A DNA stretch of 64,000 bases from Gyrodactylus bullatarudis. Taxonomy: Eukaryota; Platyhelminthes; Monogenea; Gyrodactylidea; Gyrodactylidae. This document shows, piece after piece, positions 6,101 to 58,356 of this stretch (positions within the stretch are counted from its first letter, which is position 1; every line of letters starts with the position of its first letter). The stretch covers positions 434,001 through 498,000 of the forward strand of contig SSNU01000244.1 of the NCBI GenBank assembly GCA_012064415.1, given 5' to 3'. The notes beneath the pieces are model-generated. The model had not been told where the DNA came from. It did no database searches and saw nothing but the letters and a program-made list of their open reading frames with translations. Position numbers and translations under genes: made by a program.

Positions 6101-9100
6101 GTCAAACTTCAACATGATAATTTGCAACCAAGTCAAGGAATCTATAACCCTGTTGCTACTTTCATCTACCTAGAATAATAGTGACTAGAGTAAATTTTCC
6201 AGACTAAATACATTAGCTATAATAGCAAGTCAATTTGAAATTGGAATACCTATTAAGCTCTGCTACTGTATTAATATTTCTATCCTCATTTGAAGAATAA
6301 TTTTAAGCTACTTACGTATGGGAGGGATACCTTTTTTATGTTTTCAATACAATGAAAATGTTACATCTTTTCATCAAGACTGATTTTATAATAATATCTT
6401 CATCTATTCTACATATTGTATCCACAAACAATGGAACTATAGATATCACTCTCAAGATCCCAAAATCTTTTCTGTATAAAGTCTAAATGAAATCAATCCC
6501 AGCATTCCACCCCGTTTGGTACAGAACTACTAAACACAAGTTGGCAGAGAGGTTGACATTGCTGTGTGTATTTGCCAAGAATTAAACTTTGAATTAAATT
6601 TCTAATTTCTAACGCATTAAAATGCATACTCCACTCAGGGAATTAAGACGGTTACCCTGATACCATGAGATAAATACACATGCGATAAGAGTACAAAAGT
6701 CTTCTTATCACATAAACTTCTTATTTCTTTCCAAGTGTGACTTTTGTTTCAATTTCTCTAAAAACAAAACTCTTCCCCTTGTGTGTACACTGTACAGTAA
6801 TAATAATAATAAAAATAATAGGGAAAAAGAGCTGGAAGAAGTAGAAGAGGATGGGGGATTACCTCTCAATCACAGTGGGATTATTTTGTTGTTCCATTGT
6901 GTTATAATGCAAATTCTTTCCCATAAGACAAAGATTTTGTGTGTGTCTCTTTGGTTACCTTTCTATCGGTTCTATTTCTAATCTGTCCTTGTCACTCTCT
7001 CAAGACTTTACTCTTTAATTCGGTAAATTGAGCTATTACTTGATAGATTTTTCTAATAATTTTGAATCAAATAGTACTTCTTCAGGGAACTGGTCGGCAT
7101 AGATTGACAAGAACCTTGTTCGCTTGCTAACTGACTATATGTTGTCTTCTGGCTTGTATTTGTCTATCTGTAAAAGGCAACATTGTCAGATTTGTTTAAA
7201 TTCTTTATCAAATCGAAATAACAAAGGGCTCCAACTCAACGAATACTACCATGATATTAAGCCTGATTATCTAATTGACCTACATTGTAATTTGAGTAAA
7301 CCTAATCTTTTGTTTCTTCCTTATTTAAAAAAACGTACAAATATTGATATAGATAAAGTTTATTCTTTAATTAAATTTCATAAATTTTCAAGCAGTAAAA
7401 CTGATCAAGAATTCGAAATTCGATTTATTTTTCATAAAGATTTTCAACATTTTATCGAGATTTAGCCTTTTATCCAGCATGATAGCTTGAGATTAAAGAC
7501 TTGAAGTATTACCATGATTCGAACCTTGATAGAGCTGAGAATCTTCAAATTTCAGTTATAAATTGAAACCAAACTTGTAAAGAGTTTAGTTATGTTTGAT
7601 TCAATCCTTGAGATGGACACAAAAATTAAAAGAGTTGATCATAGCAATTCTACTGATGATTCATCCTTCTGCCTTTGTTACAAAAACTCGAATTTGATCA
7701 ACTCAATGTCCTGTACTGACATAGCCATCATTTCTACCTTACCTATAGATTACCTTTAACCATTTGTCTCTCTGGTTCTATACCCAATGCATAGCCTTAA
7801 TTACTTAGTATTTGATATTTTCCCCTACCTTATTATCTGGTGGGAATCATGTTACTTTGATATTCCTAACTTTACTACTACTGTATGCATGTATCAGGAG
7901 CATCCTTGATCAGCTGAGATTCAACCAATTGATAATTGTTCTATTCACTCTCTTTCTCTTTTATGCGTAAAACTTTTATTACAGTTGAGTTTTATCCCTA
8001 CATGTGGCCTCCACCTTCTAAAAGAGAGATTATTATCATCTTATTCTACCCAATTATTCATCATATCTGTACAGATTGGTGTGCATGACTCAAAAAACAC
8101 TGCATCTCCCTTTTCCAATCTGCAATTAAAAATGAAATAATTTAATCTACTGTAATAAATGATGTAAGTAATAACTAATAATAAGTAGGGCGGTAAAAAT
8201 GCTATTTTAAATATGTTCATGAGCTATTGAATCTGATCAAAATGATATCTAGCATACTATTGTGTAAGTTTTGGTTTCTGAAATAATTTTGCTATTTCCC
8301 AACAAAAGCAAATTTTTTGCTATTTCTATCTTATTTGCTCATCAAACAAGCCTTATATTCTTATCCATGATGTAATCACAGACAATTCTAAATCGAATAT
8401 GATCTCTTTTCTCATACGAAATCAACTCAATTACCCTATTACTATTGACTAGAATTTCGTAAGCCTAGGACCAATGTCCATAGGAACTAAGAAATTTTTC
8501 ATTTGACTCGAATATTATTTGATAATAGTTCTTGGACCAATCAGAGTCCTTGAATTTCATTTGTATGAATCGGTACATTTTGTTCAGGAACCGATTCTCA
8601 ATAAGATTAAAACTAGTTTCATCATGCATTCCAAATTATATGTACCAAAGAATATACCGCTTTTTAGGAAGTGGCTTTTAAAAAGTCGTAATACTTTTTT
8701 TGCTATTTTTGAAATTCGATTTTGCTAAAAATTTGCTTTTTTTTACCACCCTATTAATAAGTCATGCAATATTCTGCTCTAGGCCTTTTTCCTTGGCATG
8801 AATAAACAAACCAAAATTCTCAGAGTCTCATGAAAGTTTGTATAAATCCTCTATACTCCCTCTTAGTTTGTACTTATACCTGTATTGAATCAACCTTTGA
8901 TCTAAAGACTAATTATCCGATCAAAGGAAAACTTGTTTTGTGTATTCTTCCTTGTTTATCATATTCATCCCCAGCTGGGAAGAACACCCCCAATTTGAAT
9001 TGGAGTGAATATCAAATAACTTTTCTCTCTGCAGCTAAACACTCTTTACATTTGGGAGCACCTGTGGATAAAGCTTACTGTATTAGTAATAAATAAGAGT

Positions 9101-12100
9101 TTTGTTGATTCTTGGACAAATTCCATCTACACTCACTCATTTAATAAAGGTGTCCAGTTAATTAGTAATACAATTTTAGCTTTTATTTATTGGGAAAACC
9201 TACTTTCATCAAAAATATTGTAGAGTTGAAATTATCATGGATTACTCAGTTTCAAATTCTCTATCAGATCAACATTTTTTATAATGAGCCTATGAAATCG
9301 AATAAAAAGTTAGGTTTTTAGACTCGTAGACCAATGATTTTAATGCCATCAGAAAGCGGGGATCTTGAGTATGAGGCTTTAATTTCAAATTTTTCTTGCA
9401 AATTAAAACCTGGACTCAATACCATGTGCTAGTCTATAACTTTGAAGGAAAATTCTCTTTAGAATGATTATTCTAATCAGAAAATAATTGGCGTAAAACA
9501 TATCAAATTTAGTATCTTTTCTGTGGGAAGCAAACTTAATGTCATGCATTGACTTTGGTAAAGTGCTTCCCAATATAAACTACACCAAATAACTATTTGT
9601 ACTTTCATAATAATCCTGAAATCTGAACATTTGAATTATATTTCCTATATTAATATACACAACCAATAAATTGTACCAATACATTTGGAACCTCCAATAC
9701 AATTACGATATTCAAGTCAAAGTTTAAATAAATAAACTCCCTTGGCTTTGGGTGTTGGCCTTCTTTTTTAAGCCTACAGTAAAAACTAATTTATAGATTT
9801 ACTTGGTACACTTGAATATCTCCTGATTAAGACTTCCCTCTATCATCAATCTTGTTTAACCCTTCATGTCCCATTGTTCCCCTAGTGGAACACAACTCTT
9901 TCTCGAGCGATAACTTTAACTGAAAGATACTTAGAATAATTTTTCCACCCCTCATTAGAAAGGAAATTTATTAAGCTACAAAATCATGTATAAGACATAA
10001 AGATAGCTGTCCACTGATGCACACCATAGTTACTTGAAGAAGGGTGATTTTTTGAAAATTTTGTCAAATATTTGAAAAATATTTAGAACGTTTTTTTTGA
10101 AAACCCATTTGTTGAGGTCTTAGAAAAAAATTAAATAACAAAAAATGACAATTTTAACCTCTATTATCTTTTATATGATAAGTCGGCTTACAAAAAGGAA
10201 TTCAGATTCAGAATCAGCGTAATTATTTTGGTTAGGTTGCAAATTTTCTCATTTGTGTGATAAAAAAAAATAATGAAGGGTTAAATTTAATAATAGGTAG
10301 AATAAGTCTAGTGATAAAAACGTATCGGTTCAGTTAGGTTCCTATCCTATCTATCAAGAACTATATCTAGTAGACTTGAACGAAATTTTACAAAATTACT
10401 AAAATCGCTTATCGATTTGAGAAAATTAATCTTCAAGCATTTCTAAATCATCCCACCAAATTTCGCTCTTAAATTCTGTCTTTTAACTTGTTGTTTATTA
10501 GGGGTAGATTTAAAAAATTTAATTTTGATAATTTTATACTGCTAAGCCGCACAAGTTCCACATCATGATATGTCTCAATCTAAAGTAGGTTTTTAGACCC
10601 ATGTTTTATACATCATTAGAACCGTCTCAAAGAGCCAAACCATATTATTACTAGGGTGGAAAATAAATGGAATAAAATATTGAAAAATATCGCAAAAATA
10701 TCTTAAAAATGGCAAATAAATCGCAATTTTATTTTTGAAAATGGAAAAATGGGGGGAAATTTTAGTCCAGTGCGTTAGCATACGAAATACATGTTTCTTT
10801 TTTGAATGTTTAATTCTTATCATGAAAATACTTTAGTTTTGAAAGATATCTTTCAACATAAGCTGAAACTCAACAAAAGATTGTACTCCATAGTACTAAT
10901 ATTTTCATCTTCCATTTTTACATTTTTTGAATTTTTTTCGGTTTCGCTGACTTTTCAAATATCCTTTTTGAATGATCCTCTTTATATCGAGTTTCTGCAC
11001 GATTTCAATTCCTTTCCTTAATGAAGTTTTATAATTCTTCATTTTTTATTCAATAGTTTTTAATAGCTTCAACCCATTTTGTAGTGAACGGAGTTGGAGG
11101 CCTTTTTTAAATCTGAGAGGAAATCTCTGCGTGATTTATTTTTAATGATGCCTTAACAGAGCCTAGGTAAGAAACTAATAGGAGAAGATGGGAAACCGAG
11201 ACAAAAGCGGACACAAAAGGATTGGAAAAAGGGGAAAAATGGAAACTTGAGATTAAAATCGCAAAAAAATCGCAAAATTATCTAGGAAAAGATGTAGAGA
11301 ATTAATTTTTTGATATTTTTTTTAAAAAGCACAGTTGATTATGATATCAAAAATCGAAAAAATCGCAAATTTTCCACCCTAATTTTTGCTAAAGAGTTAA
11401 AAACCGAAAATTTGAAAAATCTAACTCTATTGTTTATGCCCATGAATAAAATCAAGTCCAGTTTCAATATACATTGGGAAAAGTATATTCTTTACAAAAG
11501 GCTCAAGAATTGACCTCTAGAGTACTTTAGGCTTCAGTTAATATCAAATTGTACGTGACTTTATAAATTATCTTCTATTATTACACTACATCAACTATCA
11601 ACTAAGATGGTACACTGTTTATTTGGATAGGAAACAATCTCATCTCCCAAGTGCATTTTATCTTTAACTCTGGTTACTTCATGGGGTAGAGATATGTTTT
11701 TATCATTTTACACTCAAACCATACACTGTATAGTAATTAGTTTTCAAGGTTTTCCATAACAAGTATTTGAATGAATACTAAAAAATTCTTTAGTTTACTT
11801 CCAAGTGAATATATATATTCAAGATAATTCAAACCGATTCAAGTCCGGTTTTTTTAGTTTGAATAAACTCATTTTTCTTCCCTCATTTTTTGTAAGAGAT
11901 TCTCTTCTTCAGATGAACCTGGATTCCTGATTGATGTTTTATAGTACAATGTGTTCAAGACTCTGGTCCTTCTCTTCAAAATAGCCATCTTGTATTCTAG
12001 ACTGTTATTATTATTATAATAATTATTATAGTAAAAACTAATCATGTAAACTTTTAACCAAACCAACATCATATATTTCGATGACCCTTTTATTCTGATG

Positions 12101-15100
12101 AAACCCTATGTATAAATGAATGATTTTTTCTTTGAGATGAACTCATTTCATCCGAATATTAAACTCACTATGGAAAGGGAATCTAATGGTATTTTAAATG
12201 TCTTCAGATAAACTATTCCTATAATCTTCAACTACCATGGCTTATGTGAGCTTTTTCACTCTTTTCTCCACTGTTGCTATTTATTGGAGAGTTTTGGTGT
12301 TTTAAAAAGCTTGCATTTATTTTTTTCAAAATTGTAAATTATTATTTTCATTCAATTATTTGACTCTTATCACTTTTAAAGTGATACCTCTGGTGATCCT
12401 TTAAAAAATGTACGTTTGGTGTTAATACATCTTTTACTTTTATTTTAAACCTATTCGTTTTTTTTGCATCTCTATTAGACAGTAAAAAAGATTGTTTTCC
12501 TACTTGTCAAGAGATAAAAATGTTATAAAAATACAGTAATTATGTTTCCTTCGCTCGCTCACTCATGTTTTGTATTTGTTTTGTTAGCTAAACTAATCTG
12601 AATGATTGCAAATTTTCCGCCATTAAAAAAACACATACACAAGAACAACACCATCATCCTGGATAAACAATGCTTAGAGAATTTTAAAATAAACAATAAT
12701 TATTAATGTATTCTCTACCAGTCAGTCATTCTTCTGTATTTTGTTCAGATTAAAATTTTACAGAATTATAATTCTGTACGCTTTTCGGTCAATATCGGTT
12801 ACTTAAAAAGAGAGAAATACTCACAATCAAAATTTTTATTTCTTTCAAAAGAGATATACATATCGCCAGGTGTTATCAATCTCTAATCCTGATTTGATTG
12901 AATAATTAAGACGTATATGTCAGTATCCTTGGATATTAAACTACCAATAAATTTATGCGATTCTTACGTAAATCTCAATTTGAAAATTACGGAATTTCCT
13001 TTTTTTCGAAGAATAAAAGTAGGAAAAGACTTCTAGAGTTTGCTTATTCCCCCCCCCATAAAGTTAGGAGAAAGAAATTGGGCAGTATTTCAAATGTATC
13101 CACTTTCTAACCCAAAACTTTATTCGATTTTGAAGATTTGAAGCAGTTGAATGCTGAAATTTCGGATCAGAATTAAACGAAGATTTCAAGAAAAAGTTTC
13201 CGGTTTCCAAGAAAAAGTTTAACCTCTAGAATTTAGATAATTTTCCCTTGTGATTATCAAAAAATTCTAATGTTCAATTTTTGACAAAAATAAAGAATTT
13301 CTGTGAACTTTTGCAGGCGAGTTTGAATTCTTCGTTGATCCAAAAAAATCAACGTTTAATTGCCGTAATTCTTTGAAATCGATGAAATTTTTGAGATGAA
13401 GAAATTCCTTTGTGAAATTGTACAAATTTCTTATACAGAAAAGATTATCTCACACTCGACTACCTAGGCATACCTTTATGATAAATGACTCATTCATTTA
13501 TTAAAAGGTACCATCTTCTCGTTATCCTATTTGAGCATACCCTTTTCCTTAAGAGGACATTTATTCTTCTTCTTTTGGTAAGTATAAAATTTGGATAGAA
13601 ATACCTTAATCACTGCCTATATCTTTCTCTCTCTATTTCCCTCTTGTATTGTATGGGGACCATCAATCATGACTGGTTTTCTTCGAAATGTATATCCCCC
13701 CCTATCTTATCTTATCACTTGAGTATGCATTGATTCTTTTCATCCTATATACTATATTATTATATATCGAGATCGATATAACTACAGTAATAGGAGGTAG
13801 CTACTGTTTCCCTTCCATTGTACTACAATCATCATCCTTGCTATTATTATTAAAAACCAAAAGTTTGGTGCTTAGTAACCCCTCTTACTAAAGTGCTCAT
13901 CTCATGATCCCACAAAAGAATTATATAATGGGAGTTTAAGTATTTTATTCTCTACCTTTACTTTCAAAGAGACATAACACTAAAGATGATGTTTTTCCAG
14001 CATAAATCACCTAAGCAGTGTAATATCTCTTGTACAAATCTATATTTATCGTTTATATCCTTCCGGAGAAGTGTATATCGATAAATCTTGTATATTTAAA
14101 ATAAAACTACTTTAACTAAATATAAAATCTAATCACTACTGAATGAGATTATTTTAAATCTAATCACTCATTTTCTCTTGCATCGGCTCGTCATTCTTCT
14201 ATGGCATAGGATCTCCTCGATGTTTGAGTATCTGGCCAACATGCATGAAAGAATACTGAGGAAATATCAGAGCTGTTGTACTTGCCATTTATTCCATTCT
14301 ATAATTATAGACAATGGTATATAAAGTTTTTGATATCCCATTTTTTCGAACTTTGAGCTGAAAATTTTTATTGATTTGAAAGTAGAAGGCTGATCAAAAG
14401 AGTTTTTTCATGATCAAGATTAGATAAAAAGCTGAATAGAACCGTCAAATTACCAAAAATTTTCGAAAGATTCCGATTTATCAAAATTTCATTGATACTC
14501 AAGTAGTGAAAATGATCAAAAACTCAAAATTCAAGTTCGAAAAAATGGGATTTCGGCACCAAATGGGAATTTGAAAAATGACCATAAAAATATTTGTTTT
14601 CAGAATTTTTTTTCCTTTAAATGGTAAAAGTGGGCAACACGAGTAGGATTCCAAAAAATCTCTAATAAATTCTTGATGAAAATATCGAGATTTCTGTAAA
14701 AATCATAGATTCCCAACTTCATATTAATTAGCTTTATATGGGAACCCTTTATATGACTCCAATGTTTAGATTTTGATCACTGATTCACACTTCGAAAGAA
14801 CATCCTCCATTGATCCGATCTGAAAGAATATTGCATTTAGAAGTGCTATCGTATTTCTCGGAGAATAATGAATAGACCTGCACTACCTTTGTCTTTTTAT
14901 TTTTGTCAAAATCTCTTTAGATATATTTTCATCGAAAAACATTGTACTTAAGCCCTCAACATATCTTTTTGAGTCGAAAAAATGATGAAAAGACTCAATT
15001 GAATATGCTCCCAAACACACACGCTACTCATCATAATTTCTTTTGATCTTCCTTCCATTTAGCTCTATCCTTTTTTACATTGTAAGCAAAAGCTTCTATC

Positions 15101-21100: not shown

Positions 21101-24100
21101 AAATATGCGCTGTTATAATAGTTTTCTATTACGTTTTTGTTAGAAATTTTTTCATTGATATGCACAGCATATGATAGAAATTTAAAAAAGATAAATAAAT
21201 CTGTGTAATAATTCGGGCGGTCAAAATGCTATTTTTGATATTTTGCTAGAATTTTTATGAAATTTATGCAATTAACATTATTGAGCATCAAGGATATTTC
21301 CTCACAAAAATAATTTTGCTATTTTTCTGCTATTCAAAATCGAATGCTATATTTTTTGCTATTTCTTCGGGCCAAGCCCTTGTCGTATAAATGGTAACAT
21401 GAGAACAAATCTTAGTTATTTTGATTCCTTTCATCTCTTCATTTGGATCAAGCTGTTTCTAAAGCGTCTCAATCTCGTAATAGGGCCTGTTCTAATATGG
21501 GTCATTATGGATTTGATATCCCATAAATTGCTACATTCATCAAGATTATATTTCTCATCAAGAGATCTAAAAGTAGAAAGAAGAAAATAATCTTTTACAT
21601 TTCTCAACCGGAAATGCAAGCCTCTACCCCCACTCGAAAACGAAACGCATCGACATCAACCCAACAACCCAAAGCGAGGAGAAAACGGGGGACGAAGGTA
21701 GCAACGGGTACCCAACAAATCCACAAATTCTTCACAGCAAACAAACAGTGAAGAAGCCGATCCCATTGGTCAACAACACGAACAGAATCCCCATTGGTCC
21801 GAAACAGACGAATAATTGCTATTGGTCAAGACAGCCCTTTCATGTTCTTGTAATATATATATATAACTCCTCAAGTCGGTGTAAGGTCTGAAGAGAGCCG
21901 ACGAAAATAAAAGCTTTTATTCACCTAACCTCTTTCGTCGTTCTAACTACCAGCATGACCATTAGTCAGCGCCCTCAAAATAATCTTTGTATGATGATTG
22001 ATGAATTTTTATAAAAAGTTTTAATAATAAAGCCTTATCTACGGATCCAAAGAGGCTAAAGTCCAGAGATTAGTGAATTATAGGAATCCAAAGTTGGATA
22101 CAAGGAGTGTAAGAACCGATATTGGATTCTTTCAGTCACTAAGGATTGATAATTATTTGAGTGGGGTAGATTTCATTTGTCAGACAGTCCATCTTTGGAT
22201 TCTTGATGAAAAATACATATTTTGATCTTATTTTCTAATCTCTATTTCGAGTAAACACAACAATTTCCTCTCCAATATTTATTCTTCCAATCGTATATTG
22301 TGTTTAAATATATACATGTTGTATAAATTCGATGGGAAAATAAAAATTCACAATAAAATTTCTAATTGATGAGTGGTTTTTTTTCTATTTTTACACCATT
22401 GTTATCCTAAATAGTCGTGTTGAACATTGGAAAGTATACTGTATATACAAATTAGATCTTTAGATTTGTTCCAAGAAAGAGTCCAACTTGTACTTTTGGC
22501 TAGCTTCTATAGACATTCTTTTATCACGCTACGGAAATCAGAGAGGTGTATTAGAATAAATAAATCTGTCCTAATTCCACTTGCAATCACAATTCTCCGT
22601 TATTATTTCTCGATAGACAAATTAACTTCTTCTCTCTCAAATGACATAATACACACACACACACGTATCAATGAAATTAACACTAAGCTACAATACACAA
22701 GTTTAGTGTATTACTAGTAGTAGAAGAGGGGGGGGGGGAGGTGAGAGGTTTTATTTTCAAATACACAGTGTAGATTTTAGAGCAATGATTATACAACAAA
22801 AGTTTATTTTATAAAAAATGTTTTTTTTCTTCTTCAAACTAAACTAAAAAGAAAAGTAATAAACAATGTTTTATTATTATAAACATGTTGAAACGACAGA
22901 CATAACTATTTCTTGAAAGAAAACAATATTCAGATTTAAGATCATCTGGTTCGATCATTTAGAGATTTGAGTCCAGATTCAGATTAGGGTATAGGCAGTG
23001 TCATGGGGGTTCATCACAAAAGAAGGAACAGGTAACCTTGTTTTCATAGAAGAAAGACTCAATTGAAAAACATGTCAACAACTTCTAGAAGATCAACTGC
23101 TACCGTTTAAAGAAGAAATAGAAAATTCCCAAATAATTTTTAAACAAGATAATGCTCCGTGTCATCGTTCTTTATCAACAAAAACATGGTTTTAAGAGAA
23201 TGGAATATCTGTGTTGCCATGGCCTGCTCGAAGCCCCGATCTTAACCTATTGAGAACTTGTGGGGAATTTTATCTCAGAAAGTTTACTCCCAATGAAGAG
23301 TATTTTTAAACAGGCAAGAACTCATCAAGAAGATTGAGGAAGAGTGGAGATTAATTCCCAATGAGACTTTAGCTAATTTATATTGCTCTATGTCAAAAAG
23401 ATGTCTAAGAGTAGTAGAAGGAAAAGGAAATTTTACAAAATAAAAGTGAACAAATATGTTTTGTCGTTTTCTAATTCAATGAAAAAACGTAAATTTATAT
23501 TTTTAAGAATATCAATGAACTAATAAGTTCGTTAGTGATCATATCTAGAAGTGTAAGAAATTTCCTTTTCAATGCTTTATTTTACATCTCTCAAAGGTAT
23601 TTTTATAAATAAGCTAGAAGCAATTTTAAGTGAATAAATTCATTTTGTCGACCACTATAGTTCAATTCTTGAAACTATCAACATTTTATTAATTCTGGGA
23701 TTGACTATAGTTTTAATAAACAGATAGATGGAGGATTTTTATAAAAGTTATCTTATTTTTTATCTATGACCCTCAGAGAAGTAGGTTTTCAAAAAAACGT
23801 TTAAAAAATTAATTTTTTAGAAAATAAATCAACTCTCTTTGAATTTGTATAGCGCGAGTTCGACGAATGATAGAGCCAAGATCTTTGCGTATTCCAGAAG
23901 ATTAATAATGAGTTGCTAAAATGACCTGTGATAGAACTATCACTGAGGGACTTCAAGCGTTAATGTTAATAGTTATTCTAATTTCTCTTCCAGAAATGTT
24001 GGAGTGTTTTTAATACACTTTAAAGCTTAGTTGAATGATTTTAAATCTCTTTAAATGCATTAAGAAGTTGAGCACTTCTCTAAAACAGAGTTTCATGTTT

Positions 24101-39550: not shown

Positions 39551-41087
39551 TAGTGGTGGCCAAAAAAAAGTTTTCACTTTAAAAACTTGTTGTTGTTTGG
39601 TTATTTTAAATGATATTTAGTTGCAAAATAGTTCATTCGGTTGAGCAATATATGCAAATATCTAATATAGTAATTTTTTTTCGATTTGATTCATTCATAA
39701 ATACAAAATTAAGAAATTACCGTTTTCATTGAAATTTATATTGACAAAATAAAGTTTTCACTTTTTAAACTTTCTACTTCTTGTTTGTGAGAAGATTTTT
39801 GAATTAGGAAAATTAATTCGCTGATCAGATATTTATTTGCAAGTATTCTTACATTAATTATTCTGAAACAAATTCAAAATGCAAATCGAAAGACCGAAGA
39901 ATTCAAAACTAAGCAATTTTGAAAAAGAATTGGCGTCATCACTGAAATCAAAGGGTATCAGCCACCGTATGATTGCCAAAGAAATAGGATGTTCTTCAAC
40001 AACCATAAACAACTTATTTTCTTCGAGAAAATCCAATCGAAAAAGAGGTCGAAAACGTATAATTCCTAATTCTCTTAAAAAAATAATCAGGTTGATGGCT
40101 GTCAACGGGAGAAAAACGACCACACAAATAAAACAACAGTTTAATTTGAAAGCTAGCAATCGAACGATTCGTCGATTCTTAAAAAATGAACAAAATTTAT
40201 ATTGGGGAAAACCAAAACTGACTCCTAAATTATGTGAGAATGATAAAATTTCTCGTAAAGACTGGGCTTGCAAGAAAATTATCGAAAATCAAAATTGGGG
40301 AAAGGTAATCTTTTCTGATGAGAAGAAGTTCAACTTGGATGGGCCAGACGGTCTCAGTGTATGTTGGATTGACAAATCTGTACCTAAGCCAACCAGGATT
40401 AAGAGAGGATTTGGTGGAGGAACTGTAATGGTATGGGGTTTTATAACAAACGAAAATGTTGGCCGTTTGGTTGTTGTTGATCATAAACTTGATTCAAATT
40501 TCTATCAAAAAGTTTTAGAAGAGAGTATTCTACCTTTTAAAGAGGAGCTCGTGAATTCAAATTTAATTTTTCAACAGGATAACGCCCCTTGTCATCGATC
40601 AATTTCTACCAAAAGTTGGTTTCGAGAACACGGAATCATTTTGCTTGAATGGCCATCTAGAAGTCCAGATTTGAACCCAATTGAAAATCTCTGGGGAATT
40701 CTAGCTCAAAATGTCTATGCAAATGGTAGACAGTTTAGTAATAAAGATGAATTAATAAAGTGCATATTTAGAGAGTGGAATTTAATAGAGAGAGAAACTA
40801 TTATAAATCTCTATAGATCTATGCCAAAAAGATGCTTATCAGTGGTTCAAAATGATGGAGATTTCACTAAATAAAAGTGAAAACTTTATTTTGTCAATAT
40901 AAATTTCAATGAAAACGGTAATTTCTTAATTTTGTATTTATGAATGAATCAAATCGAAAAAAAATTACTATATTAAATATTTGCATATGATGCTCAACCG
41001 AATGAACTATTTTGCAACTAAATATCATTTAAAATAACCAAACAACAACAAGTTTTTAAAGTGAAAACTTTTTTTTGGCCACCACTA
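39551..41087 (+). mobile_element. Apparently intact Tc1/mariner transposon with ~215-bp inverted repeats
   Basis: The ends are TAGTGGTGGCC and GGCCACCACTA, with TA duplications at 39549-39550 and 41088-41089. The long terminal inverted repeats (39551 to about 39769, and about 40875 to 41087) differ at only a few positions (for example GAGCAATATATGC against GAGCATCATATGC), which indicates recent insertion. It is 1537 bp and carries one full transposase ORF. Confidence 0.9.
39879..40874 (+). CDS. Tc1-family DD34E transposase, full length
   Basis: 331 residues, normal for Tc1-like transposases. N-terminal paired-type DNA-binding region: a first HTH around residues 10-50 (KSKGISHRMIAKEIGCSSTTI), a GRKR hook (KRGRKRI), a second HTH (TTTQIKQQFNLKASNRTIRRFL). 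Catalytic core: first Asp in VIFSDEKKF, GGG-TVMVWG, second Asp in FQQDNAPCH, and Glu in SPDLNPIENLW with 34 residues between second Asp and Glu (DD34E). No stop or frameshift is present, so the protein could be active. The ATG is the first in the frame, about 110 bp inside the left inverted repeat. Confidence 0.93.
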   Translation: MQIERPKNSKLSNFEKELASSLKSKGISHRMIAKEIGCSSTTINNLFSSRKSNRKRGRKRIIPNSLKKIIRLMAVNGRKTTTQIKQQFNLKASNRTIRRFLKNEQNLYWGKPKLTPKLCENDKISRKDWACKKIIENQNWGKVIFSDEKKFNLDGPDGLSVCWIDKSVPKPTRIKRGFGGGTVMVWGFITNENVGRLVVVDHKLDSNFYQKVLEESILPFKEELVNSNLIFQQDNAPCHRSISTKSWFREHGIILLEWPSRSPDLNPIENLWGILAQNVYANGRQFSNKDELIKCIFREWNLIERETIINLYRSMPKRCLSVVQNDGDFTK

Positions 41088-48284: not shown

Positions 48285-49970
48285 ATGATTAATCTCAGAG
48301 AGTTACGCGATAAATTAAAAACCCGAATTAGTGAACCCGAGGCTCAGCGTAGGCTGGTCCTTGTGGTCGTTAGCACTGCCCTACTCCTGGACAACATGTT
48401 ATACATGGTTATCGTTCCTATAGTTCCTGATTATCTCAACAAGATTCATGCTCTGGACAAGAAGGCGCGAATCAGTTGGAACGATGGTAAAATCAACAGA
48501 TCCATCGAGGTTGACGATCCAACTGGGAAATATGAAATCGATGCAGTAAAATATGAAATCCAATGGGTAGCGGTAGCCTCAAAAGATACCAAAATCGGTC
48601 TTTTGTTTGCTTTCAAGGCTATTGTCCAACTGTTTATCAATCCCATTTCAGGCACTGTTATCGATCGTATGGGTTACGACTTTCCTATGATGCTAGGTTT
48701 ATGCATCATTTTTATATCCACGTCAATATTTGCTTTTGGTACAACTTACTCGGTCATGTTTGTAGCCAGGGGTCTACAGGGTGTGGGTAGTGCTTTCGCC
48801 GATACAGCAGCCTTTGCAATGATTGCTGATCGGTTCCAGGAGGAGAGGGCCACAGCCCTTGGTGTTGCTTTGGCATTTGTTTCCTTTGGCTGTCTCGTGG
48901 CTCCTCCATTCGGTGGTGTTCTATATGAGTATTGTGGAAAAGAATTCCCATTTATTGTGTTGGCCTTTATTGCTGTATTTGATGGATTTCTAATGTTGTA
49001 CATTATGCAACCAGTTCGTCTTGAGAGGATGGTCCAAAAGGCTGAGGGTAACCTACCCGATGCAACACCGATCCATAAACTTTTCCTGGACCATTTTGTT
49101 GCCATTTGTGCGGGAGCGTTGGCCTTTTGTAATATCTCTTTAGCTTTCCTTGAGCCAACCATAGCTCTCTGGATGGAGGATAAGATGAACGCCACCAACT
49201 GGCAAGTCGGCCTTATCTGGCTTCCAGCTTTCATTCCTCATGTATTGGGTGTTTACACGACAGTAAAACTCGCCAAACGTTACCCAGAGAAACAATGGGT
49301 CATGGCTGCAGCTGGCCTAACCACAGTTGGCTTCAGTTGCCTCTTTATCCCGTACTGCAACAACTTTATATCTCTCATGATACCAATCTGCATACTATGT
49401 TATGGGGTAGCTCTTGTCGACACAGCCATCTTTCCTATGCTCGCCTACATTGTAGATACAAGGCATGTGTCAGTATATGGTTCTGTGTATGCTATAGCTG
49501 ATATTTCATACAGTTTAGCTTACGCCATTGGTCCAATCGTGGCTGGTGGTTTGATCAGTAAAATTGGCTTCACCGGATTGAATATTGCCATTTTCTTTTT
49601 GACAGTGGCATTTGTACCTCTATTATATCCATTGCGCAAAGTCTATAATGCCCCTATGACGCCACGGGTACAGGATAAAGTTTCTCATGAAACAGCAAAG
49701 TTATCCGAGCCTATGGCCCCTTATGAAGGATATGACCAGGGCGATGCAGCTGATGCTACCTATCAGATCTCGGCACCTTTGGCTTCTCAAAACACCTACT
49801 ATTATGGTGGGAGTAATAGCCAGGCAAAGAATCATCATGGCAACACCATTTATCAACCTGCAACGTCGATTCCACCGAATCCTTACTCAGATCACGGACA
49901 ACACTCGGCATATCAACAGGCTCCAGGGGACAATAATTCGTATTACTCTCAGAACAGTTATGGCTACTAA
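48285..49970 (+). CDS. VAChT: Vesicular acetylcholine transporter (SLC18A3 type)
   Basis: Proton-coupled antiporter that loads acetylcholine into synaptic vesicles; major facilitator fold with 12 TMs. A single intronless frame of 561 residues. TM1 VVSTALLLDNMLYMVIVPIVPDYL has the Asp and the NMLYMVIVPI signature that separates VAChT from VMAT (NMLLTVVVPI). Further motifs are KIGLLFAFKAIVQLFINPISGTVIDR-GY, ARGLQGVGSAFADTAAFAMIADRF, TALG-ALAFVSFGCLVAPPFGG-LYE, FLEPTIALWM and YAIADISYSLAYAIGPI. The luminal loop 1 has no obvious N-glycosylation sequon. The cytoplasmic tail of about 90 residues is rich in Tyr, Gln and Asn. Intronless structure is usual for VAChT, which in most animals is nested in a ChAT intron. 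Confidence 0.94.
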   Translation: MINLRELRDKLKTRISEPEAQRRLVLVVVSTALLLDNMLYMVIVPIVPDYLNKIHALDKKARISWNDGKINRSIEVDDPTGKYEIDAVKYEIQWVAVASKDTKIGLLFAFKAIVQLFINPISGTVIDRMGYDFPMMLGLCIIFISTSIFAFGTTYSVMFVARGLQGVGSAFADTAAFAMIADRFQEERATALGVALAFVSFGCLVAPPFGGVLYEYCGKEFPFIVLAFIAVFDGFLMLYIMQPVRLERMVQKAEGNLPDATPIHKLFLDHFVAICAGALAFCNISLAFLEPTIALWMEDKMNATNWQVGLIWLPAFIPHVLGVYTTVKLAKRYPEKQWVMAAAGLTTVGFSCLFIPYCNNFISLMIPICILCYGVALVDTAIFPMLAYIVDTRHVSVYGSVYAIADISYSLAYAIGPIVAGGLISKIGFTGLNIAIFFLTVAFVPLLYPLRKVYNAPMTPRVQDKVSHETAKLSEPMAPYEGYDQGDAADATYQISAPLASQNTYYYGGSNSQAKNHHGNTIYQPATSIPPNPYSDHGQHSAYQQAPGDNNSYYSQNSYGY

Positions 49971-50897
49971 TTAATACAATAGTGATTACAATACAATCTA
50001 TATAATTATCAAACAATTCCCTGAAGACCGAGTAAGTTGAAAAATCCCAATGTTTTTTAACTCCTAAAATGTGACATTTTTCTCACTTGAGTCACGTTTG
50101 TCATTTGAGAAATTAGGTCAAGGTTAGAGAATATTACTTCGTGTTTGGAAAATTAGAAATATTGAGGCTAAATGTATCTTTCTTAAGCCATTATTAGTGG
50201 CAATACTTCAATAATAATAATATATTGATACTATATTTATTTCATAATTTTGCCTACTTGAAAATCGGTGAAATTTTGTTGATTCGAGATCCCTGAAAAA
50301 TAACTAATTTTTCTACAGTTTCATCATAATAATCGGTTTTATTGTCTAATCGAGATCCTAAAAATCAGCTTATTTTATCACTCTTTAATTTTGAAATCAA
50401 CAAAAAGAAAATTTACAATGTTTGATCCACAACTCAAACTACAGGGTTTCATTTTTCCATCTCTTCTTCTGTAAGGAAATTGCTCGAAAAATACCAAGTT
50501 ACAAATATCGATGATTTTTACAAGCATCTCAGTTTTTCCATCAAAAACAGGAATGTGACAAAGATTTTCTGAAACCTGAATCATGGAGTTTCCATTTAGA
50601 AGAATCAAAGATTTCCAATATCGAATTGGCGCTAGGGTCCTTCAGATAGTTCAGACTCGGTTCCGTCAAGTATTCATTTTCGATAATCTTGTTCTTTTAA
50701 AAAAATTATACAAATTAAAAATCAAGAGCTTATAAAATGTCTAAAAGAAATTTGATACCTTCTTCTTCTTCTTCGGAAGAACCATTTCTTATGATACCTA
50801 GGATAATCTTCATTGGACTATTTTAGCTTGCTTAGACATACTAAAGTTATTTATTTGCAAAAAAAACAAATAAGAATTTATTTAACAATTATTTTTT

Positions 50898-51087
50898 TTC
50901 GGGTTGCTGACTTGGGGTCATGCTGGAGTTAAGAACGAACGAAAGATTGTTTTGGTGAATAAAGCTTTATTTTCGTCGGTTCTCTTCAGACCAAACACCG
51001 ACTATCGATATGTATTTATACATGAAATAATGTTGGAAACGTTTTGGACTAGACGATAGCGAGGAAATCAGGCAACTTATGTCTTCC
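50898..51087 (-). mobile_element. Hammerhead-bearing short retroelement, copy 2
   Basis: 190 bp, flanked by an 11-bp duplication AATTATTTTTT (50887-50897 and 51088-51098). On the minus strand it reads GGAAGACATAAGTTGCCTGA, then a TATA box (ATGTATAAATACAT), then about 20 bp later the hammerhead core, ending with TTTCGTTCGTTCTTAACTCC and AGCATGACC-CAAGTCAGCAAC. It matches copy 1 across the ribozyme and 3' part and copy 3 across both ends. It is the most compact apparently complete copy. Confidence 0.74.
50951..50995 (-). ncRNA. Type I hammerhead-like ribozyme core, copy 2
   Basis: Minus-strand order: stem I TTTGGT (50995-50990), CTGAAGA (50989-50983), GAACCGAC at stem II, GAAA (50974-50971), stem III ATAAAGCTTTAT (50970-50959), U50958-C50957 cleavage pair, stem I ACCAAA (50956-50951). 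Stem I is 6 bp. Its fourth pair (U-A) is A-U in copy 1, and stem III is shortened symmetrically by one base pair. Both are signs of conserved structure. Stem II is weak. Confidence 0.62.
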
Positions 51088-55949: not shown

Positions 55950-56360
55950 AAAAATTTTTATTTTCCCCAAACAATGTTTCCTTGAACAAAATTTGATGTT
56001 TGAACCAGTAGTAACACATTTTTGAAAGTCAAAATGAAAATTTTTCATGTTCTGATATATATAAAAATTCCATTTTCCCTTTCTCGTAGTAGAATTCATT
56101 GAAAAAATCTTGGCATTTTCAATCTGGATTTTGAGCTTGCTGACTCGAAGTCATGCTAGTGTTAAGAACGAACGAGGGATTATTGGTGAATAAAGGAATA
56201 TTTTTGAGGAAATCAGGCAACTCTTGTCTTCAAAATCTGGATTTTGTATATCAGAACAAACTCGAAAAAGTATGATTTTACTGTAAAATATGCTTAGTTT
56301 TCGATTATCCTTAAAATGAGATTAAGGCTGGGAAAAGTTGAAAATTTTGGCCTACTCTAA
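55950..56360. repeat. Dispersed repeat family 3, copy A
   Basis: Reverse-complement relative of 58985-59415. Shared phrases include AACATTGTTTCCTTGAAC (as its complement), GAACCAGTAGTAACACATTTTTGAAAG, TATCAGAACAAACTCGAAAAAG and GGCTGGGAAAAGT. This copy is interrupted by hammerhead element copy 3, and lacks about 130 bp present in copy B. The two copies form a large inverted repeat with a 2.6-kb spacer. Confidence 0.65.
56134..56233 (-). mobile_element. Hammerhead element copy 3, internally deleted
   Basis: A 100-bp insertion within repeat family 3, flanked by a perfect 13-bp duplication AATCTGGATTTTG (56121-56133 and 56234-56246). The related uninterrupted repeat at 58985-59415 shows the empty site. 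It keeps both ends of copy 2 (TTGCCTGATTTCCTC; TTTATTCACCA...GTTCTTAACAC-AGCATGAC) but has lost the promoter and the CTGAAGA/GAAA boxes. Confidence 0.72.
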
Positions 56361-58235: not shown

Positions 58236-58356
58236 GTAATTGTATTTATATGTTAACCGGGGTAGAGTCTGAAGAGACCCGTCGAAATATAACGTTTATC
58301 ACACTAATATACGCTTGATGTTCTCTAACCTTCCGTATGAGTTTAGAATCTAACAA
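58236..58356 (+). mobile_element. Hammerhead-bearing short retroelement, copy 4 (divergent)
   Basis: 121 bp, flanked by a perfect 12-bp duplication TAAAATGATTTT (58224-58235 and 58357-58368). A TATA-like GTATTTATATG precedes the ribozyme core by about 20 bp. Outside the core the sequence shares little with copies 1-3, so it represents a different subfamily with the same architecture. Confidence 0.68.
58263..58306 (+). ncRNA. Type I hammerhead-like ribozyme core, copy 4
   Basis: CTGAAGA (58269-58275); stem II GACCCGTC (58276-58283), pairing GA with UC around a CCCG loop; GAAA (58284-58287); a short, partly paired stem III (58288-58298); U58299-C58300 cleavage pair. Stem I TAGAGT (58263-58268) pairs with ACACTA (58301-58306) with one A-A mismatch. 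This copy has the best stem II and the weakest stem III. Confidence 0.58.

Follow-up and report, generated by a model that had tools for sequence, protein, structure and literature searches.

A truncated Penelope-like element insertion in Gyrodactylus bullatarudis with a predicted type I hammerhead in which a pseudoknot may serve as helix II

The 64,000-nt stretch of Gyrodactylus bullatarudis DNA analysed here (the window) contains a 381-bp segment, 21596-21976, which reads as an ordinary 5'-truncated copy of a Penelope-like element (PLE). The best explanation, which we consider probable, is that this truncated insertion carries a type I hammerhead ribozyme in which stem II is a single pair and a 5-bp pseudoknot forms helix II. 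An earlier note on this DNA had described a short retroelement with a minimal type I hammerhead, presumed to be moved by an unseen autonomous partner. The 12-bp target duplications that it reported are exact, and the TATA box, hammerhead core, AGGU/ACCU stem I and palindromic stem III are all present (Table 1). The link that it drew to Penelope is borne out by 49 codons of a PLE open reading frame (ORF) in the segment, 92% identical to a relative elsewhere. The short element with a hidden partner has to be replaced by a truncated PLE copy, since long open relatives of the ORF are present in the same genome.

A search of the 77-Mb genome with the segment, using a method that scores the best candidates only, gave 47 matches. 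These relatives share sequence upstream of the segment for differing lengths and have 3' ends that lie close together, and the segment is therefore the 3' portion of a longer element, usually found with its 5' end truncated. The 3' ends fall into two classes, separated by around 36 nt. Among 38 matches to the 3' region, 9 end at query positions 178-184 and 24 at 208-219; four stop earlier, and the last is the query. The window copy belongs to the short class. The spacing fits the optional tail of PLEs, which has been traced to two reverse-transcription start sites (PMC11167929; papers cited here by PMC number are represented by excerpts). Flanking duplications of 14, 11 and 10 bp were found at genome loci L009, L026 and L027 respectively, and many other copies among the same 38 have no clear target duplication. 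At L011 and L012 the sequence 3' of the ribozyme reads ATG and continues into the N-terminal part of the ORF, so that the segment is a pseudo long terminal repeat (pseudo-LTR) between the end of one ORF and the start of the next. L013 has three partial PLE ends inside about 1 kb. Four structural features of a PLE are found here, namely 5' truncation, variable target duplications, an optional tail of 30-40 nt and the pseudo-LTR arrangement. Upstream flanks were checked for full-length copies starting at the cut site: one proved to be the PLE end of another family together with an inverted piece of its own 3' flank, and two lacked the motif. It is worth adding that PLE ends adjoin inverted partial copies at L022 (around 2543-2628) and L119.

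The coding part was analysed using locus L023, which has an 854-aa open frame with a Pfam match to RVT_1 at 5.8e-8. It has at least 120 protein relatives; nearly all of those listed carry PF00078, and most are unnamed. Where a listed relative has a name, it usually comes from a flatworm (Fasciola, Dicrocoelium, Sparganum, Paragonimus, Schistosoma, Trichobilharzia), with one labelled as a bacterial metagenome-assembled genome. The RVT_1 match and the flatworm and metagenomic relatives identify a reverse transcriptase (RT) of PLE type, the assignment to type being made from relatives and structural features and not from an RT tree. On this frame Pfam reported nothing besides RVT_1. Read by eye, the stretch CSCGLSYIGMTTRTIGERGKEHL within it looks like GIY-YIG endonuclease, and among the protein relatives listed one (P0109) carries PF01541, which we take to be the GIY-YIG family, and one (P0081) is named as a GIY-YIG endonuclease.

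Judged from its sequence, the ribozyme is a type I hammerhead, with its blocks in the order C-G-S and with G10.1-C11.1 as the only pair of stem II. By analogy with known hammerheads, self-cleavage is predicted after C21922. CUGAAGA and GAAA are separated by 8 nt, GAGCCGAC. In the 35 distinct rows of the diversity set described below, positions 10.1 and 11.1 pair in every row, and a canonical stem II of at least two pairs was not found: 10.2 and 11.2 pair in one row, and are A-A or A-G in the remaining 34. Position 10.2 is other than A in just 14 of 925 motif places, some of them apparently unrelated. The loop, NCCGR, pairs with YCGGN located just 5' of stem I, across a linker of three or four nt, to give the pseudoknot. 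The label of minimal type I hammerhead used in the earlier note misses both the one-pair stem II and the pseudoknot. The pseudoknot probably stacks on the G10.1-C11.1 pair and acts as helix II, and would link helix II to helix I. The established hammerhead fold places stem I alongside stem II, and in type-SGC hammerheads the two are joined by a linker, typically of three nt (PMC10085705); the linker of 3-4 nt between the outer ends of the pseudoknot and stem I would fit this geometry.

The motif is abundant. The core pattern CTGANGAGANNCNNCGAAA has 955 exact matches in the genome as against 0 for the reversed control, 2218 as against 6 when up to one mismatch is allowed, and 925 as against 0 when TCAC is required downstream. 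This pattern leaves only N7 of CUGANGA free, where A is found 63 times, T 22, G 3 and C once (n=89). Loci fetched by the motif have the core imposed on them, and hence a further sample was drawn without it: PLE ORFs were located through protein similarity alone, and the 3' flanks of 12 among the 58 listed matches were taken. The motif is present downstream of 11 of these; GAAA is intact in 10, L114 having GAAG, and the full type I core (CUGANGA, GAAA, and UH with A15.1-U16.1) is thus seen in 10 of 12 flanks where no pattern was imposed. Apart from the change in L114, CUGANGA, GAAA and U16.1-H17 are kept beside ORFs that are just 43-49% identical to L023.

Both stem I and the pseudoknot show compensatory changes between diverged PLE families. 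Stem I is found as AGGU/ACCU, UGGU/ACCA, GGGU/ACCC, GAGU/ACUC and AAGU/ACUU, and the pseudoknot as UCGGU with GCCGA or ACCGA, CCGGG/CCCGG, CCAGG/CCUGG (L113) and UUGGA/ACCAA (L047, with the outer pair broken). Two sets of sequences were used for counting. A set of 55 distinct rows was derived from 91 motif instances, two without an S block being dropped; one row contains N letters, families with the four-nt linker are out of register, and the S block was picked from eight four-letter forms, which favours pairs 1 and 2 of stem I and not pairs 3 and 4. The diversity set comprises 39 hand-picked sequences (11 from the RT-anchored sample, 3 from the window and 25 of the 55 rows or like copies), which became 35 rows after four duplicates were merged. 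The MAFFT alignment of the 39 has the S block one column off between families, and the counts used its 5' part with the S block placed by its own letters.

In the 55 rows, stem I pairs 3 and 4 form 50 and 40 times (means of 39.2 and 25.2 and maxima of 45 and 36 in 2000 shuffles), and the outer pseudoknot pairs, a1 and a5, form 48 and 43 times (shuffled means 37.0 and 24.2, maxima 44 and 36). The diversity set agrees, with 33 and 24 rows for the two stem I pairs (shuffled means 25.2 and 15.4) and 33 and 25 for a1 and a5 (25.0 and 16.1). It contains 13 and 11 double-changed cells for the stem I pairs and 14 and 12 for the pseudoknot pairs, and the fractions of 5000 shuffles reaching the observed values are 0.0002 and 0.0008 for stem I and 0.0002 and 0.0016 for the pseudoknot. 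When the partner strand is slid by one or two columns, the mean number of pairs drops from 4.46 to at most 2.63 and from 3.60 to at most 1.71. The pseudoknot also withstands a test in which the site of the S block is allowed to float, five pairs being formed in 35 of 60 cases (shuffled mean 17.6, maximum 26). The weight of the covariation is borne by changes between families whose RT frames are 43-69% identical to L023. Together with the 47 matches to the segment and the 955 core matches, the compensatory changes in stem I place the core that was noted earlier beyond chance. The evidence for an RNA fold is good, and activity is predicted only.

In the window, stem III is a perfect palindrome, which could be a hairpin or a dimer helix. 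Palindromes of at least 6 nt occur in 18 of 33 distinct stem III inserts (shuffled mean 9.8, maximum 20), an excess that is suggestive only as a sign of dimers. The earlier note had looked to covariation in stems I and III; stem I covaries in register in the aligned rows, and stem III gave these palindromes. Calculated dimer energies for the two commonest perfect palindromes are -14.5 and -12.7 kcal/mol, compared to 0 for the stem alone as a monomer, values that speak to the feasibility of dimers and not to their use. By analogy with the dimers proposed for other PLE hammerheads, a palindromic stem III with AAGCUU, AACGUU or GAGCUC at its centre could join two RNAs. In one PLE family (L116, L057, L083) the stem III loop AAGAGCUCA has a six-nt palindrome inside a nine-nt loop, a layout similar to that of the retroviral dimer-initiation loop.

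Of the 71 motif instances of L045-L116, 53 have a TATA-like box in the 60 nt that precede the core (shuffled mean 15.5, maximum 27), the closest box being 20-31 nt before C3. Upstream of it in the window are three ATTGG boxes, which we take to be inverted CCAAT. Transcription starts about 30 nt from a TATA box. If this is so here, the element's own RNA would start in or near CUGANGA and would have no ribozyme at its 5' end, so that the ribozyme would form in read-through RNA only.

Several observations weigh against a functional hammerhead of this form. The rows are related, and the shuffle fractions therefore overstate the significance. Pseudoknot pairs 2 and 3, with fractions of 0.084 and 0.087, fall short of the level of the other four, and the remaining pairs are too invariant to tell; the central pairs are nearly invariant, with one double change each in a2 and a3 and none in a4. 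Pair 4 of stem I is broken in 11 of 35 rows, and in the floating-site test stem I gave four-pair stems in 41 of 60 cases (shuffled mean 35.2, maximum 44), which is no clear excess. Two of the 91 instances lack the S block, its site is probably misplaced in at least two further ones, L046 and a copy similar to it, and one of the 12 RT-anchored flanks (L110) has no motif. The window fold is no more stable than its shuffles (z 0.04), by a folding method without pseudoknots. Of the 38 matches to the 3' region, 29 start upstream of the cut site and reach one of the 3' ends; these insertions run across the predicted cut, and their RNA templates were therefore uncut there. This agrees with work on the Anolis PLE, whose ribozyme is silent without protein and is not needed for insertion in vitro (PMC11167929).

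The database searches belong with these points. The earlier note had proposed a search for Rfam hammerheads, which gave no family over threshold in the window or in 20 relatives, and no hammerhead at E<=10 in 21500-22100. The only hammerhead model at E<=10 in the relatives was RAGATH-1 (RF03152), weakly, in 2 of the 20 (E 5.7-8.8). With shorter input it was found in 3 of 7 relatives at 18.8-21.2 bits, and genome-wide in two places, at 31.3 and 26.0 bits (E 0.085 and 1.28), so that even the best falls short of the curated cut-off of 56.3 bits. Control genomes gave signals below cut-off in this search too, in 8 of 14. The two genome-wide places (L121, L122) have the core, stem I and stem III and lack the YCGGN strand, and therefore have no bearing on the pseudoknot.

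Other readings of the segment have to be weighed. The hairpin UCGGU...NCCGA could be an inactive alternative to the hammerhead fold, or could serve a different purpose in the RNA, such as binding of the PLE protein or the start of reverse transcription, in which case the core would be a relic with little or no activity. When monomers are folded without pseudoknots, the best structure indeed contains this hairpin for 6 of 7 representatives, and the three-way junction does not appear for any of them; the silence of the Anolis ribozyme points in the same direction. However, stem I pairs in the exact hammerhead register and covaries, and the core letters are kept beside strongly diverged ORFs, and on balance we regard this reading as unlikely. 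A DNA-level promoter element, consisting of TATA box and initiator, that merely resembles a hammerhead would fit the frequency of TATA-like boxes, but a DNA element would not be expected to show compensatory changes linking the strands that flank the core, which makes this reading very improbable. We give least credence of all to the 381-bp unit as an independent non-autonomous retrozyme that moves via circular RNA. Its length, target duplication and hammerhead do resemble the metazoan retrozymes of ~170-400 nt (PMC7229834), but the window copy starts inside the PLE ORF, and the starts of other copies are scattered, with shared PLE sequence extending beyond the segment on the upstream side; the segment does not fit a self-standing non-autonomous unit of ~150-450 bp.

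On the preferred reading, of a truncated PLE with a pseudoknotted hammerhead, the segment would cover the end of the ORF, the promoter region and the pseudo-LTR ribozyme, and any transcript reading through a pseudo-LTR would be cleaved after C21922. What hammerheads do in PLEs has been described as unknown (PMC7761336). We tentatively propose, as a possibility that we would not rate highly, that the ribozyme acts as a sensor of tandem RNA. One strand of helix II comes from outside the C block, and the arrangement would thus lie outside the six block orders proposed in 2023; given the position of the TATA box, the element's own transcripts would lack two ribozyme strands, and the ribozyme would be present only in read-through or tandem RNA or in dimers joined by the palindrome.

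Table 1. Features of the segment and further copies of the motif in the window
Feature	Position	Strand	Basis or remark
Left target-site duplication AAAATAATCTTT	21584-21595		sequence; longest common flank 12 nt
5'-truncated, tail-less copy of PLE 3' part (pseudo-LTR)	21596-21976	+	genome relatives, 3'-end classes
C-terminal 49 codons of PLE ORF (residues 806-854 of L023 frame, 92% identical); stop TGA at 21749-21751	21602-21748	+	protein comparison
Three ATTGG boxes	21765, 21793, 21821 (span 21765-21825)	+	read from sequence
TATA run	21854-21866	+	
Pseudoknot helix, 5' strand UCGGU	21876-21880	+	
Stem I, 5' strand AGGU	21884-21887	+	
Hammerhead core CUGAAGA (C3-A9)	21888-21894	+	
G10.1, A10.2, pseudoknot 3' strand GCCGA, C11.1	21895-21902	+	one canonical stem II pair only
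Hammerhead core GAAA (G12-A15.1)	21903-21906	+	
Stem III, perfect 16-nt palindrome AATAAAAGCTTTTATT (hairpin or dimer helix)	21906-21921	+	
C17 with predicted cut after 21922; stem I 3' strand ACCU 21923-21926	21922-21926	+	cut site by analogy with hammerheads
Start of next PLE ORF copy (ATG ACC ATT AGT CAG CGC CCT C), ending in short tail-less 3'-end class	21955-21976	+	3'-end comparison
Right target-site duplication AAAATAATCTTT	21977-21988		sequence; longest common flank 12 nt
Second motif copy, another PLE family, stem I UGGU/ACCA	50938-51005	-	
Third motif copy, partly decayed, CCGGG/CCCGU family	58253-58320	+	

Some further observations were made in the window and in the loci. Directly before the ORF start, TTCTAACTACCAG at 21941-21953 resembles a branch point and 3' splice site. 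There is a partial further copy of a PLE end at 56129-56204, 79% identical to 50896-50973, and a weak PLE trace at 12068-12199 (RT residues 324-367 at 39% identity), which adjoins a stretch, 12198-12409, with a 76% match to a part of L010 outside the element. An ORF at 48285-49970 resembles the vesicular acetylcholine transporter; its first listed relative is from Cichlidogyrus casuarinus, also a monogenean (61% over 89%), followed, among those with names, by relatives from flukes and tapeworms. By eye, a 335-aa open frame at 39867-40874 (+) is like a mariner/Tc1-type transposase, and a 225-aa open frame at 8928-9605 (-) of L011 is like the end of a piggyBac-type transposase. ARAGORN found no tRNA in seven loci; L042 is tRNA-like by eye.

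Two other Rfam hammerhead models were run genome-wide. RF00163, for type I hammerheads, scored 73 places, 29 of them over cut-off, and was rejected as a source of the PLE motif, which is absent from 7 of the 8 loci read (L029-L036); these seven are a repeat type with CTGACGAGTCC...GGACGAAACGCGCGT, which by eye resembles the Sm-alpha short repeats of schistosomes. No overlap was seen by eye between the 73 places and the 47 segment matches or the 100 core-pattern places listed, and below cut-off this model also rings in 11 of 14 control genomes. RF00008 gave none over cut-off among 47 scored places.

A literature search found no hammerhead with a one-pair stem II in a PLE, the founding papers on PLE hammerheads lying outside that search, so that overlap is possible. 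Within the literature searched, the architecture is known in outline, and the novelty appears to lie in its compact form and in its fixation in PLEs. In one group of PLEs a pseudoknotted core, with its compensatory changes, is retained where stem II would be expected, which points to selection acting on the structure and speaks against a relic.

Our reading of the motif is that flatworm PLEs carry a type I hammerhead similar to RAGATH-1 but more compact. RAGATH-1 is a bacterial ribozyme. It has the same type I order and a similar core (CUGAUGA-G-A...C-GAAA), and a one-pair stem II in its printed model. We also read from the printed consensus a possible pairing of the RAGATH-1 loop, CUUGG, with CCAAG in the loop of a 5' hairpin. 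A one-pair stem II with a loop-II pseudoknot is found in the PLE motif, while for RAGATH-1 the one pair is printed and the pseudoknot is our reading. The two differ in that the partner strand of RAGATH-1 lies within the 5' hairpin, at a distance of 13 nt from stem I, whereas the PLE motif has a linker of 3-4 nt and no hairpin, and in the size of the loop (7 nt in RAGATH-1, 6 nt in the PLE motif). PLEs reportedly carry minimal type I hammerheads, in work attributed to Cervera and de la Pena in 2014 and Lunse in 2017. With these, including PAc of Anolis, the motif shares a pseudo-LTR location near the ORF start, the type I order and a proposed action as dimers; unlike them it has a helix III, which is palindromic, a stem II of one pair, and a conserved loop-II pseudoknot.

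Among the hammerheads surveyed by Perreault 2011 (PMC3088659), about 40% of representatives are predicted to have a pseudoknot between stems I and II, and one case of a single-pair stem II is reported. Here, in contrast, a group of PLE families within a single genome has the one-pair stem II and the pseudoknot as its rule. The non-circularly permuted hammerheads (Eckert 2023, PMC10085705) are also, in the part of the paper used, pseudoknotted, with around three nt tying stem I to stem II. In those ribozymes the three blocks are intact and re-ordered, whereas the PLE motif has the ordinary C-G-S order and takes the 5' strand of its helix II from upstream of stem I. Taken with RAGATH-1 in Rfam, the motif suggests that hammerheads with a one-pair stem II have a more compact relative in animals, which present models miss.
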